NCBI RefSeq assembly: GCF_007993035.1
Contig: NZ_VOOS01000004.1
Location: forward strand, 310,001 to 374,000
Origin: Vicingus serpentipes
GTDB taxonomy: Bacteria > Bacteroidota > Bacteroidia > Flavobacteriales_E > Vicingaceae
Length of the DNA: 64,000 nt
Reading direction: 5' to 3'
Position numbers and translations under genes: made by a program. The notes below the pieces were generated by a model. It did not search any database. It was not told the DNA's origin and saw only the letters and a list, made by a program, of their open reading frames with translations. Positions 37,439 through 46,459 of the stretch are shown here, one piece after another. Position 1 is the stretch's first letter, and each line of letters begins with the position of its first letter.

Positions 37439-38521
37439 TTAAGGTTTAAAATCAAATTCCAATTGCCCTAAAAATTGGTCGTTATTTTCTTGTTCAAAAT
37501 TTGAAATTTGCAAACCTAGTAAGCGAATCCCTTTTTCAGTTTCTGGAATTAAATCAATTAATTCAGCACTCATTTTTTTTATTTCTTGATGAGAAATAGG
37601 CTCGGGTAAGGTTTTACTTCGAGTAATCTGCTTAAAATCGGCATACTTTACTTTTAGCGTTAAGCTTTTTCCGTTGGTTTCACTTTTACTTAAGCGTTTA
37701 ATTAAAATGTCAGCAACTTCATTAACTCGTTCTATTAACAAGGGGGTTGTACTTATATCTCTGCTGTACGTTCGTTCAGCAGCAATCGATTTTCTAATTC
37801 TGTTTGGATTTACCAACCTATTATCTATTCCTCTAGAAACATTGTAATAGTATTTACCCGATTTACCAAACCAACGTTCTAAATCATATAAACTTTTATT
37901 TTTTAAATCAGCACCCTTAAAAATACCGTGTTTGTGCATTTTTTGAGCTGTAACTTTTCCAACTCCAAAAAACTTTTCAATTTTTAGTTCTTCAACAAAA
38001 GTAGTAGCCATTTTTGGGGTAATCACATAAAATCCATCAGGTTTGTTAAAATCAGAAGCAATTTTGGCTAAAAATTTATTGTATGAAATTCCTGCAGAAG
38101 CTGTTAATCCTGTTTTTGCTTTTATCTTATCTTTAATTTCTTGAGCGACATCCATTGCAAACTCTAAGTTCATTTTGTTTTCAGTTACATCTAAATAAGC
38201 TTCATCTAATGATAGTGGTTCTATTAAGTCGGTATATTCAGCAAATACTTCATGTATCTGTCGCGAAGCTTCTTTATAGGCGTCGAAGCGAGGTTTTACA
38301 AAAATAATATGAGGACATTTTTTGTAAGCAGTAATCGAGGGCATTGCAGAACGAACACCATATTTACGTGCCTCATAACTTGCAGCAGCAACTACACCTC
38401 TTTCTTTAGAACCGCCAACAGCTATTGGTTTACCTATCAGTTCAGGGTTGTCTCTTTGCTCTACTGAAGCATAAAATGCATCCATATCAATGTGCAATAT
38501 TTTACGAATTGTATCAGGCAT
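37439..38521 (-). CDS. dinB: DNA polymerase IV (Y-family)
   Basis: A 360-residue translesion polymerase. Catalytic acidic residues are in HIDMDAFYASVEQRDNPEL and PLSLDEAYLDVT, and the steric and fold motifs in GVVAAASYEARKYGVRSAMP. A helix-hairpin-helix thumb (IEKFFGVGKVTAQKMH) and the little-finger domain follow. The C-terminus GQLEFDF resembles a sliding-clamp binding peptide. It extends mismatched or damaged primers with low fidelity. It begins immediately after the stop of the DUF5686 gene with no gap. No LexA-like site is visible. Confidence 0.95.
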   Translation of the reverse strand: MPDTIRKILHIDMDAFYASVEQRDNPELIGKPIAVGGSKERGVVAAASYEARKYGVRSAMPSITAYKKCPHIIFVKPRFDAYKEASRQIHEVFAEYTDLIEPLSLDEAYLDVTENKMNLEFAMDVAQEIKDKIKAKTGLTASAGISYNKFLAKIASDFNKPDGFYVITPKMATTFVEELKIEKFFGVGKVTAQKMHKHGIFKGADLKNKSLYDLERWFGKSGKYYYNVSRGIDNRLVNPNRIRKSIAAERTYSRDISTTPLLIERVNEVADILIKRLSKSETNGKSLTLKVKYADFKQITRSKTLPEPISHQEIKKMSAELIDLIPETEKGIRLLGLQISNFEQENNDQFLGQLEFDFKP

Positions 38522-40939
38522 CTAAAACGAATATCCTAAACTCATTTTTACGGTAAAATTTTCGCTTGCTTTCTTAAACTGATAAGGGCCATAACGATAA
38601 TGAGCAGAAACACCAAAAGTGCTAAAGTTTGCTTTTAAAATATTATTTATCGCAATACCCGATTCATAAAAACCTTTCTCCATTGTTTTAAAAACAACTC
38701 CTCCATGATTTTGAGGTTTTGAAAGATCACCATACCCAACACTTGTAGTAACAACAAATTCTGGAGCAAATTTTTTGATTTTTAACAACAAACTTCCAAA
38801 ATTGTGTCTAAAGTGTAGTGAAGCAAAACGGTCAGAGAAAAACTCGTAAGGGAGCATTGTTTCGAAAGCATTTTCGGTAGCAACCAAAAAGTTTTTTGGT
38901 TTAAATGTACCAATGCTTGTATTCATTTTCACAATGGGAGCATCTCCAACAATAAAGCCAGTTTCAATAAAAAATTTAGGCTTACCAATGTTCTTTATAT
39001 TAAATTGTTTTTCGGTTCTAAATGTAAATCGAGTGTATTCATAATCACCATCAGCTTGATTTAACCCTTGCTCAACCTTAGCATAAAGAATAGGATACTT
39101 TGTTGCCTTAGCGTATTTATAATTCAACGTTTGAATTACTTTTTGTTTAAAGGCATATTTAAATTCTGCTCCAACTTCTGCAAAAGTATAATCCTGAACA
39201 AACAAGGTGGTGTTATCATCAATTTTATTGCGATAAAAATAATTGTTGGTTACACTTACTTTTTCTTGGTTTGCAAACAAAAACACTTTTAAATAACGAA
39301 GTGTTCTAAATTGAAAACGAGCTTCCATTTTTTCATTGTCGTTCATTCTACTTAGATAGAAATTTCGATTAGAAGCAGCTGATAACAAAGGTTTTTCATA
39401 ACTATTAAATTGAACGACTCCTGGTTCTACAACGTCTTTTTGATAAGAAAAATTAAGTTCAATATCACTTTGTTTGCTTATTATAGTATTAAAATCACCA
39501 CCATATTTAACAGTTTTATCTTTTGTTCCATAAGCTGCATAACCACCTATTGAAAATACTTTTGACACTTTCGAACTTGTATGAAGCCCAGCTCCTAGTC
39601 GAAACCCTTCATAATCATTATACTTAACAAAACGATTCAAATCTAAATTAACATAACCCCATTTTAATTTTCCGGTCAATAATGCTTCAAGGCCTGTTAT
39701 TTTTTTATCGAAGTTTTCAGCTTTACCAACACTATCAATCACATGGTAAGTTGCTTGTTCTTTTTCTGATAAGGTGTCGCCACGATATTTAAACCAAAAC
39801 GCTTCATCTTTTTTTGTTACATCATCAGCAACTTCAGTAGTAATTATTCCAAATTCTTTTTTGTTTAAATCGGGATTAATCTCGATGTTTTTAAGGTAAG
39901 ATTTACCTATTCCTAGCATTTTAAAATCGTTGATTTGAGCAGTTTTAAATAAAATTGTGGTGTTTAATTGAACGGGAAACCAACTGTTTTCTATTTTCTC
40001 ATATTGTTGTTGAATTTTCACACCAAAACCTTCCTCTTCTTGAGCAGGTTCGGCAATTACATTTTGTACTGCAAAGCCATTGGTGTTAATATAAAGCAAT
40101 CCTTTTAATCCTTTAAAATTTTTACCTTTTTTTGGTCGGAAAGAAATCACAAAAACAGTATCAGACCCACTAAAAGTTGTGTCTTCAATCAAGAAAAAAT
40201 ATTTATTGCTACTATTTACGCTTATCGGATTAAGATATGAATTGTCCATTACGGTTAGCATTTCCTCATAAAATGAAAACGATTGAATTTCTGTAGCGAT
40301 AAGTGAAAAAGTATTATTTTGAAGACCTGAAACTCTAGATGCAAGCACTTTTTCATAACTTTTGTCGGGCTGCATATATTTTCGTTCAGTTACCGATTCC
40401 ATTAAAAATAAATGATGTTTTTCTAAAAATTCTATTGCTTTTTGGTTGTTGGTGTCAAGTGAGCTTATCTTCTCAGGGTTGTTCAGTATAGCTGTGTCAA
40501 CAGCACCAGTAATATAAAGTTTGTTATATGACTCGTATTTAAAATCTAAGCTTTTTTCCGGATTATGTATTTTTCGGTTGGCAACTACATTATTAATAAT
40601 TCTATGTGCAGGGTTCTCGCCTGGTAATAAAACGAATTCGTTTAATTCATAACTGGTTGAGGTTAATTTTGCTACAATGTATTGTTGATTGGAAACATTG
40701 ATTTCTGCAACTTGATAGCCAACATAGCTAAACTTTAAGGAGTTAATAGATTTAGTTGAGACTATACTAAAATTACCATCTATGTCGGTTGTAGCTCCAT
40801 TGTTATTATTGTCAATAATATTTACAAATGGTAAGGCTTCTTTTGTTTTTTCGTCAATAACTTTCCCTTTAATGGTGTTTTGGCCATAAATTGTAACAAG
40901 GCTAAATAGCCCAAAAAGTATACTTAAGAAGTGTTTCAA
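38522..40939 (-). CDS. DUF5686 family outer-membrane protein with carboxypeptidase-regulatory domain
   Basis: An 805-residue exported protein. Signal peptide (about 1-19); a carboxypeptidase-like regulatory domain (about 20-105, IKGKVIDEKTKEALPFVNI); then the DUF5686 region (ENPAHRIINNVVANRKIHNPEKS). The C-terminal 400 residues have alternating strands rich in Tyr and Phe, ending in a terminal aromatic (KMSLGYSF), as in outer-membrane beta-barrels. It resembles a TonB-dependent receptor without a plug, and its function is unknown to me. It heads a minus-strand run with dinB and the small membrane protein, and diverges from the radical SAM gene. Confidence 0.85.
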   Translation of the reverse strand: MKHFLSILFGLFSLVTIYGQNTIKGKVIDEKTKEALPFVNIIDNNNNGATTDIDGNFSIVSTKSINSLKFSYVGYQVAEINVSNQQYIVAKLTSTSYELNEFVLLPGENPAHRIINNVVANRKIHNPEKSLDFKYESYNKLYITGAVDTAILNNPEKISSLDTNNQKAIEFLEKHHLFLMESVTERKYMQPDKSYEKVLASRVSGLQNNTFSLIATEIQSFSFYEEMLTVMDNSYLNPISVNSSNKYFFLIEDTTFSGSDTVFVISFRPKKGKNFKGLKGLLYINTNGFAVQNVIAEPAQEEEGFGVKIQQQYEKIENSWFPVQLNTTILFKTAQINDFKMLGIGKSYLKNIEINPDLNKKEFGIITTEVADDVTKKDEAFWFKYRGDTLSEKEQATYHVIDSVGKAENFDKKITGLEALLTGKLKWGYVNLDLNRFVKYNDYEGFRLGAGLHTSSKVSKVFSIGGYAAYGTKDKTVKYGGDFNTIISKQSDIELNFSYQKDVVEPGVVQFNSYEKPLLSAASNRNFYLSRMNDNEKMEARFQFRTLRYLKVFLFANQEKVSVTNNYFYRNKIDDNTTLFVQDYTFAEVGAEFKYAFKQKVIQTLNYKYAKATKYPILYAKVEQGLNQADGDYEYTRFTFRTEKQFNIKNIGKPKFFIETGFIVGDAPIVKMNTSIGTFKPKNFLVATENAFETMLPYEFFSDRFASLHFRHNFGSLLLKIKKFAPEFVVTTSVGYGDLSKPQNHGGVVFKTMEKGFYESGIAINNILKANFSTFGVSAHYRYGPYQFKKASENFTVKMSLGYSF

Positions 40940-40991
40940 TGTAATATTTTTACGAAGTGAATTTACTATTATTTCAGCAAATACTATTTCG

Positions 40992-40999
40992 TATTTTTG
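40992..40999 (+). promoter_or_regulatory. Bacteroidota -7 box (TATTTTTG) of the radical SAM gene, probably leaderless
   Basis: The box ends four bases before the ATG at 41004, the same geometry as at 35007-35014, so the mRNA should start at the AUG. The -33 region has only a TTTC-like sequence near 40973. Confidence 0.55.
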
Positions 41000-41003
41000 A
41001 GAT

Positions 41004-43109: not shown

Positions 43110-43143
43110 GTTGTAACTTTTTAATAGTTGTGAGCGTCACATT
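43110..43143 (+). promoter_or_regulatory. Candidate ECF sigma promoter upstream of the sigma gene
   Basis: GTTGTAAC (43110-43117), 17 bases, CGTCACATT (43135-43143). The same two elements with the same spacing occur at 44691-44724 before the DUF2807 gene. AAC in -35 and CGTC in -10 are typical of ECF-dependent promoters. The predicted start near 43149 leaves about 18 bases to the TTG start codon, which suggests autoregulation. Confidence 0.75.
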
Positions 43144-43166
43144 CACAAACACTACAAAACAGAACG

Positions 43167-43652
43167 TTGACAGTAAGGGAATTTAATAAATGTGTGGATG
43201 ATTATTCCGATAATCTTTATCGCTTTGTGTTGAAAAACATTAAGGACGAGGATAAGGCTAAGGATATAATTCAAGATACGTTTGAAAAATTTTGGAATAA
43301 GAAAGACGATGTGCAGGAAGGAAAAGAAAAATCTTATTTGTTTACAACGGCATACCATACCTTAATAGATGTAACCAGAAAGGAAAAAAGACAAGGAAAT
43401 TTTAGCGAGGTTAAAGAAGAAAGTTATAGTGTAGATAGTCAGTATTCTGATTTACAAGAAGTGCTGGAAGAAGCAATAAATAAATTACCAGAAGATCAAA
43501 AAGCAGTAATAATGTTGAGAGATTATGAAGGTTATGCTTACGATGAAATAGCTGAAATAACTAAGCTTTCAGAGTCGCAAGTAAAGGTTTACATATTTAG
43601 AGCACGAAAATTTTTAAAACAATATTTAGGAAGTATAGAACAGGTTTTATGA
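43167..43652 (+). CDS. ECF RNA polymerase sigma factor
   Basis: A 161-residue sigma-70 family protein of the ECF group. Region 2 (about 8-75) has YRFVLKNIKDEDKAKDIIQDTFEKFWNKK and a SYLFTTAYHTLIDVTRKEKR segment for -10 binding. Region 4 (about 100-155) has INKLPEDQKAVIMLRDYEGYAYDEIAEI and the recognition helix LSESQVKVYIFRARKFLKQYL. The start is TTG (43167), about 18 bases after the predicted transcript start. It overlaps the next gene by four bases (ATGA), and that gene looks like its anti-sigma factor. A shared promoter motif upstream of itself and of the DUF2807 gene suggests these are its targets. Confidence 0.93.
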   Translation: MTVREFNKCVDDYSDNLYRFVLKNIKDEDKAKDIIQDTFEKFWNKKDDVQEGKEKSYLFTTAYHTLIDVTRKEKRQGNFSEVKEESYSVDSQYSDLQEVLEEAINKLPEDQKAVIMLRDYEGYAYDEIAEITKLSESQVKVYIFRARKFLKQYLGSIEQVL

Positions 43653-44680
43653 GCTTAATTAACAAAAATAACTACGAAGCATTTTTGCTTGACTATATGG
43701 AGCAGAACCTTTCTGCTGATATGGTAGCGGAATTGATGTTGTTTTTTGAGCAAAATCCTGACCTAAAACATGATTTAGAGGAGTTGGGCGAAGTTGCTTT
43801 ACCGATAGAAGACATAGTATTTGAAGGTAAAGATGATTTGAAGAAAGAAGTTTTAGAAAACTTAATGATTGCTGAAATTGAAGGATTAAACTCTGTTGAT
43901 CAAAGTAAAGAATTACAAGAAGCAATAGAAGAAGATAATGTCACCGAAAAAGCTTTTTTACTGTATCAAAAAACAGTATTAAAACCAACGCCAGTTATTT
44001 TTGAAAACAAAGAATCATTAAAAAGAGAAAGAAAAATTATTCCAATGTATTGGTGGGCGACCTCTGCTGCCGCAATTCTAATCGCGTTCTTCTTAATAAG
44101 AAATATGAATACTGATGGTGTTCAGAAAACGCAAAATAATTTTGCGGATAACAAAGAATTAGAATTTAAAAAGAATAGCAGTGAAGTGGAAGAATTGCCA
44201 AAACCTATTGAAAAGGAATTTTTAGACAATGAGACCATTCAGGTAGCTAAAAAAGTAAATACAACTCCAATAAAAGTTGAAAAGAAAAAAGTAAAACCAA
44301 CAATTAAAGAAGAACAACCTATCGAAAACAATTTAGTTGCAGAACAAGAACCAATAAATGAAAAAGACAGCATAACGATACTGCCAACAATTTATGAAGA
44401 AGAAGTTTTGTTAGCAGAGAATAACATCCAAATCGAAAAGGAAGTAAAAGGAGAGCCGTTAAGTGTTGGTCAGTTTTTGAAAAAAGAAGCGCAGAAAAAA
44501 GTACTAAAAGATGAACAACCTGAGCCGAATAAGAAAGCAGAAATTATGGTGGTTGATTTATTGGCTAAAGTTGCTGGTAAAAATGCACGTGTAGATAAAA
44601 CTAAAAATGATGAAGATGAGACAGAACAATATGCTTTAAATATAGGCGGTTTCTCATTTTCTAAAAAAGTTAGAAAATAA
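43649..44680 (+). CDS. Probable single-pass anti-sigma factor
   Basis: A 343-residue protein whose ATG overlaps the sigma stop. The cytoplasmic N-terminus (1-130) contains YEAFLLDYMEQNLSADMVAELMLFFEQNPDL, the helical start common to Bacteroidota anti-sigma factors. There is no Cys/His zinc motif. One membrane helix (about 132-149, YWWATSAAAILIAFFLI) separates it from a long periplasmic part (about 150-343) rich in Lys, Glu and Pro, with repeated EE/KK patches and no obvious fold. The position and topology make it the likely membrane regulator that holds the sigma factor and senses an envelope signal. That role is an inference; I recognise no catalytic feature. Confidence 0.72.
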   Translation: MSLINKNNYEAFLLDYMEQNLSADMVAELMLFFEQNPDLKHDLEELGEVALPIEDIVFEGKDDLKKEVLENLMIAEIEGLNSVDQSKELQEAIEEDNVTEKAFLLYQKTVLKPTPVIFENKESLKRERKIIPMYWWATSAAAILIAFFLIRNMNTDGVQKTQNNFADNKELEFKKNSSEVEELPKPIEKEFLDNETIQVAKKVNTTPIKVEKKKVKPTIKEEQPIENNLVAEQEPINEKDSITILPTIYEEEVLLAENNIQIEKEVKGEPLSVGQFLKKEAQKKVLKDEQPEPNKKAEIMVVDLLAKVAGKNARVDKTKNDEDETEQYALNIGGFSFSKKVRK

Positions 44681-44690
44681 TTTCGTTGGA

Positions 44691-44724
44691 GTTGTAACAA
44701 ATTCAAACCTCAGTTCGTCACATT
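44691..44724 (+). promoter_or_regulatory. Candidate ECF sigma promoter upstream of the DUF2807 gene
   Basis: GTTGTAAC (44691-44698), 17 bases, CGTCACATT (44716-44724), matching the site at 43110-43143 base for base in both elements. The spacers themselves are unrelated, which argues for function rather than recent duplication. The predicted start is near 44730, giving a leader of about 60 bases. Confidence 0.78.
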
Positions 44725-44789: not shown

Positions 44790-46385
44790 ATGAAAAAATT
44801 AGCATTTATAATCTCATTCTTTGTATTAACCTCATTAGGTTTTAGCCAAGGTGTAGAAAGAAGTTTAGAAAGTTTTACAGGAGTAAAAATTTCATCAGCG
44901 TTCAATGTTGAATTAATAGAAGGTCCTTCAAGTTCTGTTAAAATAGAAGGTGTACCTGAGCAATATATTGAAAACATTATTACAGAAGTAAACGGAGATG
45001 TGCTTAATGTTTATGTAAAAGGGAAAGTAAAAGCAGCAAATGATATGAGATTAACCATTAGTTACCAAACGCTTAATTCTGTTGAAGTAAGTGGGGCATC
45101 ATCAGTAAAAGCAAATAATGCAATAAATGCTAACAACTTTACAATTAAAACAAGTGGAGCTTCCAGTCTTGAATTAGATGTAAATGCACAAGATGTTAAA
45201 TTAACTTCTTCTGGAGCAAGTGAAACAATACTAAAAGGATTTGCAAAAACTTTTAGCCCTTCATTATCAGGAGCTTCAACACTTAAAGCAAAAAACTTTC
45301 AAGCAAATAAAGTAGAAATTAGTACTTCAGGAGCTTCTAATGTAAGTGTTTATGCAGCTGAAGAAATTTATGGATCAGCAACTGGAGCTTCTGATGTAAA
45401 TGTATATGGAAATCCTCCAGTAAGTGTTATATCAAAATCTGGAGCATCTGATGTTAAAGGTGAAGAAGGAGGGTTAAATATTACTATTGGGAATAGCAAT
45501 AATAGCGAAGATGTAAATGTAATAGTTGGTAAAACGGGAGTAAGAGTTAGTGATGACGAAAGTGTAAATGTAAATACTGCCAATAATAATGTAAGTGTTA
45601 TTAATGATACAACAAGAGTAAAATGGAGAAACACTCAAATTTTAATTATCGATGATAATGTGTCAATTAAAAGAGAACCTAAAAAAAGAAGAAACCATTG
45701 GGCAGGAATTGATTTAGGTATAAATGGTTTTGTAAATTCTTCAGGTAGTTTCGACCTAAAAAATGATCCTAGTCTTGAAGCGGCTGACCCCAAAAAAGTA
45801 ACTCAATTTATGGAGTTAGATTATGCTAAATCATGGAAATTAGGAATAAACTTTTGGGAACATTTTTTTAAATTAAAAGAACACCATGTAGGTTTAGTTA
45901 CTGGATTAGGTTTGGAATATAATAATTATGAGTTAAGAAATAACGTTAGTTTAATTGCTGATGGAGGTTCATTTGTAAACAATACGTTAACTCCATTTAA
46001 TGAAGAATATACGTGGGGAATTGTTGACACAACTTTAAGTTATTCTAAAAACAGATTTAAAACATTTTACATTACAGCTCCTTTTTTGTTTGAAATAAAC
46101 ACTGGGCAACATAAAAATAAATCTTTTCATGTTTCTACAGGAGCTATTTTAGGCTATAAGTTTAAAACAAAAATGAAATATAAGTATGAAGAGAATGGTG
46201 ATACACAAAAGTATAAAGACACTCAAAACTTTAATACAAACCCTTTTAAAGTTGATTTAACAGCCAGAGTAGGTTATGGATGGTTTACAGCTTTTGCCAC
46301 GTATAGTTTAACTCCATTGTTTGAAAATAATAGAGGACCAGAATTACACGCTTTTAGTGTTGGTATGGCCTTAATAGGATTTTAG
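44790..46385 (+). CDS. DUF2807 head-GIN protein with C-terminal outer-membrane barrel
   Basis: A 531-residue exported protein. Signal peptide (about 1-19); a DUF2807 beta-helix-like domain (about 25-235) built on repeats of the type VSGASSVKANN, TSGASSLELDV, SSGASETI and LSGASTLKAKN; then a linker (about 240-300). The C-terminal region (about 305-531) has alternating amphipathic strands and an aromatic-rich end, as in a small outer-membrane barrel. The fusion suggests a surface or periplasmic head anchored by its own barrel. Its upstream promoter matches that of the ECF sigma gene, so it is the most likely output of that sigma factor. Its function is unknown. Confidence 0.85.
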   Translation: MKKLAFIISFFVLTSLGFSQGVERSLESFTGVKISSAFNVELIEGPSSSVKIEGVPEQYIENIITEVNGDVLNVYVKGKVKAANDMRLTISYQTLNSVEVSGASSVKANNAINANNFTIKTSGASSLELDVNAQDVKLTSSGASETILKGFAKTFSPSLSGASTLKAKNFQANKVEISTSGASNVSVYAAEEIYGSATGASDVNVYGNPPVSVISKSGASDVKGEEGGLNITIGNSNNSEDVNVIVGKTGVRVSDDESVNVNTANNNVSVINDTTRVKWRNTQILIIDDNVSIKREPKKRRNHWAGIDLGINGFVNSSGSFDLKNDPSLEAADPKKVTQFMELDYAKSWKLGINFWEHFFKLKEHHVGLVTGLGLEYNNYELRNNVSLIADGGSFVNNTLTPFNEEYTWGIVDTTLSYSKNRFKTFYITAPFLFEINTGQHKNKSFHVSTGAILGYKFKTKMKYKYEENGDTQKYKDTQNFNTNPFKVDLTARVGYGWFTAFATYSLTPLFENNRGPELHAFSVGMALIGF

Positions 46386-46425
46386 TTAGTACCCCTTTTT
46401 TCCTTCCTGTTTAGTTAGTGCAAAT

Positions 46426-46455
46426 AAAAAACCCATCAATTCTGATGGGTTTTTT
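46426..46455. terminator. Bidirectional terminator between the DUF2807 and M1 peptidase genes
   Basis: ACCCATCA (46431-46438) and TGATGGGT (46443-46450) close on ATTC, with A5 before and T5 after. It can serve both convergent genes. Confidence 0.9.
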
Positions 46456-46459
46456 GGTT

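Follow-up and report, generated by a model that had tools for sequence, protein, structure and literature searches.

Two matching ECF-type promoters probably connect a sigma/anti-sigma operon with a predicted outer-membrane barrel gene in Vicingus serpentipes

Introduction

The FecI-FecR-FecA system consists of an ECF sigma factor, an inner-membrane anti-sigma protein with a periplasmic C-terminal domain and an outer-membrane barrel. The locus described here has the same three-part layout of sigma factor, anti-sigma protein and barrel. It differs in that a copy of the promoter stands before the barrel gene, and the product of this third gene (gene 3) is not a TonB-dependent receptor with an STN domain: it matches OMP_b-brl_2 and DUF2807, and no TonB-dependent receptor or STN family was found.

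The Dma systems share with the locus their occurrence in Bacteroidota, an ECF sigma factor encoded beside a membrane anti-sigma protein, and a link to the outer membrane. Structural modelling and profile comparison recovered the N-terminal anti-sigma domain, the single membrane helix (at moderate confidence) and the long disordered tether of a Dma, but not the C-terminal beta-barrel on the same chain: at its C-terminal end the model has a helix and three strands, and no barrel family was matched. By this last feature the anti-sigma protein is not a Dma; as modelled, it is like a Dma anti-sigma protein with the barrel on another chain, encoded here by a separate gene with its own promoter copy.

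Three further systems invite comparison. Toastrack domains (DUF2807/DUF4097) are known from PSP-like envelope stress systems, and the head of the gene 3 product is a DUF2807 domain. PMC11237479 mentions an operonically linked sigma factor for toastrack in some contexts and infers an intracellular domain, whereas here the domain is optional, comes after an apparent signal peptide and shares its chain with an outer-membrane barrel. None of the PSP/Lia partners PspA, PspC and LiaI-LiaF was found among the six locus proteins scanned (radical SAM, methyltransferase, sigma, anti-sigma-like, DUF2807-barrel and M1 peptidase). The CGT-box motif SM6 of Flavobacterium psychrophilum has an ECF-type CGT -10 box and, according to PMC9723704, one sigma/anti-sigma operon among its targets; the listed targets also include type IX secretion genes, and the likeness lies in the -10 box and that operon. 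Finally, the best NCBIfam match of the sigma factor is the GFO_1088/PG0214 family (NF058625), which it matches with 127.7 bits, under the cut-off of 130; according to PMC10101095, the gene that follows PG_0214 and PG_0215 in P. gingivalis is a different one, the DUF4252 gene PG_0216.

Nothing in the literature searched links a 'head GIN domain' with a sigma factor, and the accessible parts of the papers on DUF2807 and sigma factors do not describe the circuit. Nor did we find an account of a Bacteroidetes ECF promoter motif of the GTAAC/CGTC type, in a search whose scope stopped short of the ECF classification and the first Dma descriptions, where a prior description of the promoter group is possible; related searches led to one paper on Bradyrhizobium and to the Dma2 paper.

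Results

The locus

By the window we mean the whole stretch of DNA that was analysed, 64,000 nucleotides long. The features that matter here are the following:

43110..43143, + strand: P_sigma, candidate promoter; -35 box TGTAAC at 43112-43117, spacer 17, -10 box CGTCACA at 43135-43141, predicted start A43147
43167..43652, + strand: ECF sigma factor, 161 aa; Pfam Sigma70_r2 and Sigma70_r4_2 above cut-off; D68 in region 2.4
43649..44680, + strand: anti-sigma-like membrane protein, 343 aa; overlaps the sigma stop (ATGA)
43673..43972, + strand: predicted anti-sigma helical domain, aa 9-108; AlphaFold2 pLDDT about 90-98 except residues 41-60
44051..44107, + strand: predicted inner-membrane helix, aa 135-153, moderate confidence; hydrophobic, pLDDT about 62-81
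44111..44458, + strand: predicted disordered tether, aa 155-270, poorly conserved (low column information); pLDDT about 46-54 over most of it
44537..44668, + strand: predicted C-terminal mini-domain, aa 297-340; a helix (pLDDT 58-70), then three strands (residues 311-340, pLDDT 85-88)
44691..44724, + strand: P_g3, candidate promoter; -35 box TGTAAC at 44693-44698, spacer 17, -10 box CGTCACA at 44716-44722, predicted start A44728
44790..46385, + strand: gene 3, 531 aa; DUF2807 (toastrack) head and outer-membrane beta-barrel, Pfam PF10988 and PF13568 (OMP_b-brl_2)
44874..45416, + strand: DUF2807 head, aa 29-209; in 27/49 aligned members
45705..46373, + strand: beta-barrel, aa 306-528, the constant part of gene 3; in 46/49 aligned members
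46425..46456, + strand: terminator-like hairpin 3' of gene 3

The sigma factor belongs to the ECF group, having only sigma-70 regions 2 and 4; its TTG start aligns with Met1 of its homologues.

Two sites with identical boxes

The sequence-only reading had described two bipartite sites free of mismatches, and this proved correct: GTTGTAAC-N17-CGTCACATT occurs at 43110-43143 and at 44691-44724 with identical boxes (8 + 9 bases), 17-base spacers and differing spacer sequences. Both sites have AAC in the -35 box, CGTC in the -10 box and a spacer within 16-17 bases, as ECF-type promoters do. No third exact copy with a spacer of 15-19 exists in the whole 2.92-Mb genome. When the genome was scanned with a promoter profile derived from relatives (44 sites, the window held out), P_sigma and P_g3 ranked top with 31.0 and 28.9 bits, and the next-best scores were 19.4 and 17.2 bits, more than 9 bits below the pair. 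Within the window the next-best score was only 8.7 bits, in agreement with the earlier remark that no further copy was noticed there.

Such a pair could in principle stem from chance or from a recent local duplication of DNA, since there are just two copies and they lie 1.6 kb apart, but the spacers and flanks are unlike. Dinucleotide shuffles of the window (n=100) gave no match to the bipartite pattern; in shuffles restricted to the intergenic sequences, for which box lengths and spacer were fixed from the finding itself, none of 1000 pairs had 17/17 matching positions and two had 16/17. Together with conservation at both places across many genomes (see below) the shuffles rule out this origin, to which we assign a negligible probability. 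On these comparative grounds P_sigma and P_g3 are very probably a real promoter pair. The full identity over 8 + 9 bases is nevertheless partly luck, because the two sites in one relative's genome usually differ outside TGTAAC and CGTCNYA.

A possible third site in the window, at 37947, was rejected as a half match that lacks the -10 box, and none was found in the gap (40940-41003) before the neighbouring gene 38522-40939. One relative has a strong site (L154, G010:C33, 3127-3165) before what appears by eye to be the orthologue of that neighbouring gene. After TGTAAC the window has TTTT (43118-43121) in the sigma promoter and AAAT (44699-44702) in the barrel promoter; TTTT in the one and AAA- in the other was also seen in all ten g13 loci and in 3/5 g4 loci, and is absent from the three other g1 loci.

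Conservation in relatives

Two sets of loci were compared. The first comprised 81 loci, namely 76 from a sigma-protein search of 149 relatives, four more, and the window; not among them are G068 and G076, each with E <1e-30, or the second copies that some genomes carry. Over its 603 kb the pattern GTAAC-N15-19-CGTC had 109 sense matches, 13 matches to the reversed pattern and 8 antisense matches. The core stands before the sigma gene in 57/81 loci and just past the anti-sigma gene in 47/77, leaving 24 and 30 loci, respectively, without it; where gene 3 is of the barrel type by a sequence criterion, P_g3 is retained in 33 of 41 loci. The second set consisted of the best 80 loci from a scan of named genomes, 77 after removal of 3 duplicates. 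Here, among the matches listed, the stricter GTAAC-N16/17-CGTCNYA occurs before sigma in 69/77 loci (absent in 8) and past the anti-sigma gene in 29/70 (absent in 41), against a background, again among the matches listed, of 4 other sense, 3 antisense and 1 reversed-control matches in 688 kb. In both sets the absence of P_g3 falls partly on loci where a different gene comes next. The logo of the first set reads roughly cTGTAAC-wwww-...-CGTCNYA-N5-AAA, TGTAAC and CGTCNYA being its conserved core.

Among genomes that have a close sigma orthologue (E <=1e-30), a profile match with E <=0.002 was counted by eye in 19 of 29; among those lacking one, the count was 1 of 17. This comparison is biased by the training of the profile on loci from many of the orthologue-bearing genomes.

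In the structure of sigmaH the G:C pair at -11 is contacted by I91 and N92, according to PMC6411747. If the G of CGTC is set at -11 as in that structure, transcription would start at 43147 and 44728. These positions lie four bases past the element, not 6-8 bases as the sequence-only reading had it. Among the sites with spacer 17, A occupies the predicted +1 position in 63/67, and the third base after CGTC is A in 67/67, although it lies outside the search pattern.

It could be argued that the boxes bind a dedicated DNA-binding regulator instead of RNA polymerase with an ECF sigma factor, as a bipartite repeat before two operons would suit a dimeric regulator too. The boxes are, however, not palindromic and have a fixed orientation, the spacer is 16 or 17 in all 109 sense matches of the first set (the pattern allowed 15-19), the A at the expected start is nearly fixed, and the -10 box varies together with a residue of the sigma factor, as shown next. 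We consider a dedicated regulator very improbable.

Residue 68 of the sigma factor and the second base of the -10 box

The -10 register was scored leaving its second base out, and sigma residues were taken from the alignment; sequences with in-frame stops were dropped from the tree and co-evolution work and kept with X in this tally. With Asp at residue 68 the second -10 base is G in 135/135 readable P_sigma sites (16 unreadable) and in 71/72 readable P_g3 sites (79 unreadable), the sole exception, L196, being a poor match. With Glu-68 (families f3 and f14) it is C or A in 11/11 P_sigma and 7/7 readable P_g3 sites (4 unreadable). Four of these Glu-68 genomes were in the first set; seven more were added by searching family f3 specifically, and each of them agreed. 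Sigma factors with Asn-68 (family f12) have G in 3/3 P_sigma sites. In the tree the lineages with Glu-68 group as a single clade (support 95/86), which makes one origin of the change possible.

That residue 68 and the second -10 base vary together at both promoters argues for one reader, i.e. for one sigma factor that reads P_sigma and P_g3 alike. By residue counting D68 may correspond to N92 of sigmaH, which according to PMC6411747 contacts the -11 pair: counted from W81, as the counterpart of Y57, an Ile-Asp lies at equal spacing, namely I67-D68. Alignment with SigW also places D at this position.

The fourth -10 base changes in step only in part. Family f11 has CGTA at P_sigma and P_g3 alike (3 loci), in favour of one reader, but the two promoters are out of step, with CGTT at P_sigma and CGTC at P_g3, in 4/5 g12 loci (L061, L062, L067 and L076) and in the named loci L193 and L199.

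Other candidate targets

A broad regulon was rejected, as the loose core TGTAAC-N16-18-CGTC showed no excess in the genome (8 matches vs 16 for the reversed control). The sequence-only reading had proposed a genome-wide search and expected its hits before envelope genes. The search yielded no third exact copy, before envelope genes or elsewhere, and only one or two weaker candidates; the expectation held for canonical sites of some relatives, the genes there having been judged by eye. The weaker candidates by profile precede an ABC-transporter operon (G000 C2:432467) and a gene for a small secreted protein (C1:335698). The strict core of the former is present in G000, G001 and G002, which are of one genus, and in G014 and G027 (g12), and absent in G015, G024, G005 and more distant loci; its -10 box does not fit CGTCNYA, and we list the operon as a candidate target. 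In the locus collection the GTAAC-N-CGTC core with an off-consensus -10 box is seen before the ABC-transporter operon at L253-L255, L258 and L259. The small secreted protein gene is a weak candidate, with 1 strict and 3 loose sites at 6 loci.

In relatives, sites also stand before carboxypeptidase-regulatory outer-membrane-like genes (by eye), and G060 has two good ones, L155 and L170, ahead of genes that by eye resemble lipoprotein genes. Close to a LolA-like gene (by eye) lies a small gene that is preceded by sites at 4 of the 10 loci examined, out of 13 found; this genome has no match to it at E 1e-4. In L276, L277, L278 and L280 a site lies 218-238 bases before the gene of a small exported-looking protein; in the L156, L157 and L169 contexts such a gene adjoins the LolA-like gene (by eye).

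These sites bear on the question whether the promoters, genuine as they may be, serve more than one ECF sigma factor of the cell, in which case the circuit would not be a dedicated one. G060, with its two good sites, lacks a close orthologue of the sigma factor (best E 9.8e-12), so another ECF sigma factor may share the motif; the ABC-transporter operon is preceded in 5 genomes, from two genera, by a related core with an off-consensus -10 box; and the authors of PMC9723704 suggest that more than one ECF factor may read SM6. Yet of a genome with 12 sigma-like matches only P_sigma and P_g3 score high, and the -10 change tracks the residue of this sigma factor in both promoters. Shared reading thus seems unlikely to us, if by no means far-fetched, and we prefer a circuit served by the sigma factor of the locus.

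The anti-sigma protein and the product of gene 3

The layouts of both proteins are predictions. The window anti-sigma protein had no match in Pfam or NCBIfam; the anti-sigma models NF052375 and NF010501 were matched (E <=0.01) by 5 and 4, respectively, of 59 aligned members. Its AlphaFold2 model has a mean pLDDT of 72 and a pTM of 0.33, and a PDB fold search with the whole model found no match at E 0.001. The helical domain (aa 9-108) is its best conserved stretch. The C-terminus carries a recurring strand motif, e.g. YALNIGxFSxSRK, which varies in distant members.

In a profile comparison the N-terminal domain aligned with that of fused anti-sigma proteins (69 columns, probability 97), the homologous domain being fused in family f12 to a PorP/SprF barrel; this barrel and that of gene 3 showed no relation by the same kind of comparison (probability 0.8). 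Three loci contain an anti-sigma domain fused to a PorP/SprF-type barrel (L112:4368-6032, - strand; L113:4423-6090, - strand; L116:2017-3726, + strand), followed by a separate gene of ~320 aa, which in L112 is PorP/SprF itself; these look like Dma-type fusions tied to type IX secretion proteins.

The gene 3 product begins with an apparent signal peptide (by eye), and its model (mean pLDDT 86, pTM 0.49) consists of a beta-helix head, a disordered link and a barrel. The head is a DUF2807 domain by PF10988 (128.9 bits), and its beta-helix matches 3pet with a TM score of 0.88 by target length. As the counts in the feature list show (46 vs 27 of 49), the barrel is the constant part of gene 3 and DUF2807 is optional. 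The circuit of a sigma/anti-sigma pair and a DUF2807 gene, as first proposed from the sequence, therefore needs to be reworded in its last member, while the pair of ECF-type promoters on which it was built has gained strong comparative support.

Discussion

Our main reading is that both sites are -35/-10 promoters for the ECF sigma factor encoded at 43167-43652; judging from the comparative sequence evidence, we put its probability at roughly 0.87. Most likely, a stress-response sigma factor activates both the pair of genes to which it belongs and an adjacent outer-membrane gene. P_sigma would drive the sigma/anti-sigma pair, which makes autoregulation a natural conclusion, and P_g3 would drive the barrel gene. 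With one promoter per target the sigma factor would amplify its own operon, inhibitor included, and at the same time make the barrel.

How the sigma factor might be controlled can be sketched from the predicted layouts. The anti-sigma protein would keep sigma at the inner membrane, and its disordered tether would offer the C-terminal domain at the outer membrane, where this domain could dock on the barrel. Sigma would be freed when the barrel is lost or misassembled, or when the envelope is damaged, and would then restore both barrel and inhibitor. We infer both the docking and the signal that leads to release; for docking we would put the odds somewhat below even.

An equally balanced proposition, which we think may or may not hold with about the same chance, is that the promoter circuit is as described and the barrel is output only, the anti-sigma protein sensing something else and its C-terminal domain binding another partner. 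The C-terminal motif persists in several anti-sigma genes that have no adjoining barrel gene (by eye), and a distance-matrix test gave no specific sign that the C-terminal domain co-evolves with the barrel (partial r 0.35 vs 0.37 for the N-terminal domain). On the other hand, the promoter is kept in most loci with a barrel-type gene 3, and family f12 provides a homologous anti-sigma domain physically fused to an outer-membrane barrel. The docking model would, in its general form, describe a split dual-membrane system widespread in Bacteroidota, in which a tethered anti-sigma protein docks on a separately encoded barrel that is itself a sigma target. We put this generalisation forward tentatively, as the less probable outcome. 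If it is true, the cell counts its outer-membrane barrels by their occupancy of the anti-sigma protein, and the lineages with the joint change of sigma residue and promoter record a natural rewiring of the circuit.

As promoters the pair is ordinary in kind. What makes it worth following is its wide conservation, the joint change of sigma factor and promoter, and its two-piece connection with the outer membrane. The results link an apparently uncharacterised, widespread group of Bacteroidota ECF sigma factors with a defined promoter and with a target in the outer membrane, so that the regulon of this group can be read from the sequence. How ECF sigma factors recognise the -10 box is put to a natural test by the joint change of residue 68 and the second -10 base. 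Should the anti-sigma protein indeed dock on the barrel, it would represent a second, two-piece route of signalling from the outer membrane to an ECF sigma factor, beside Dma.
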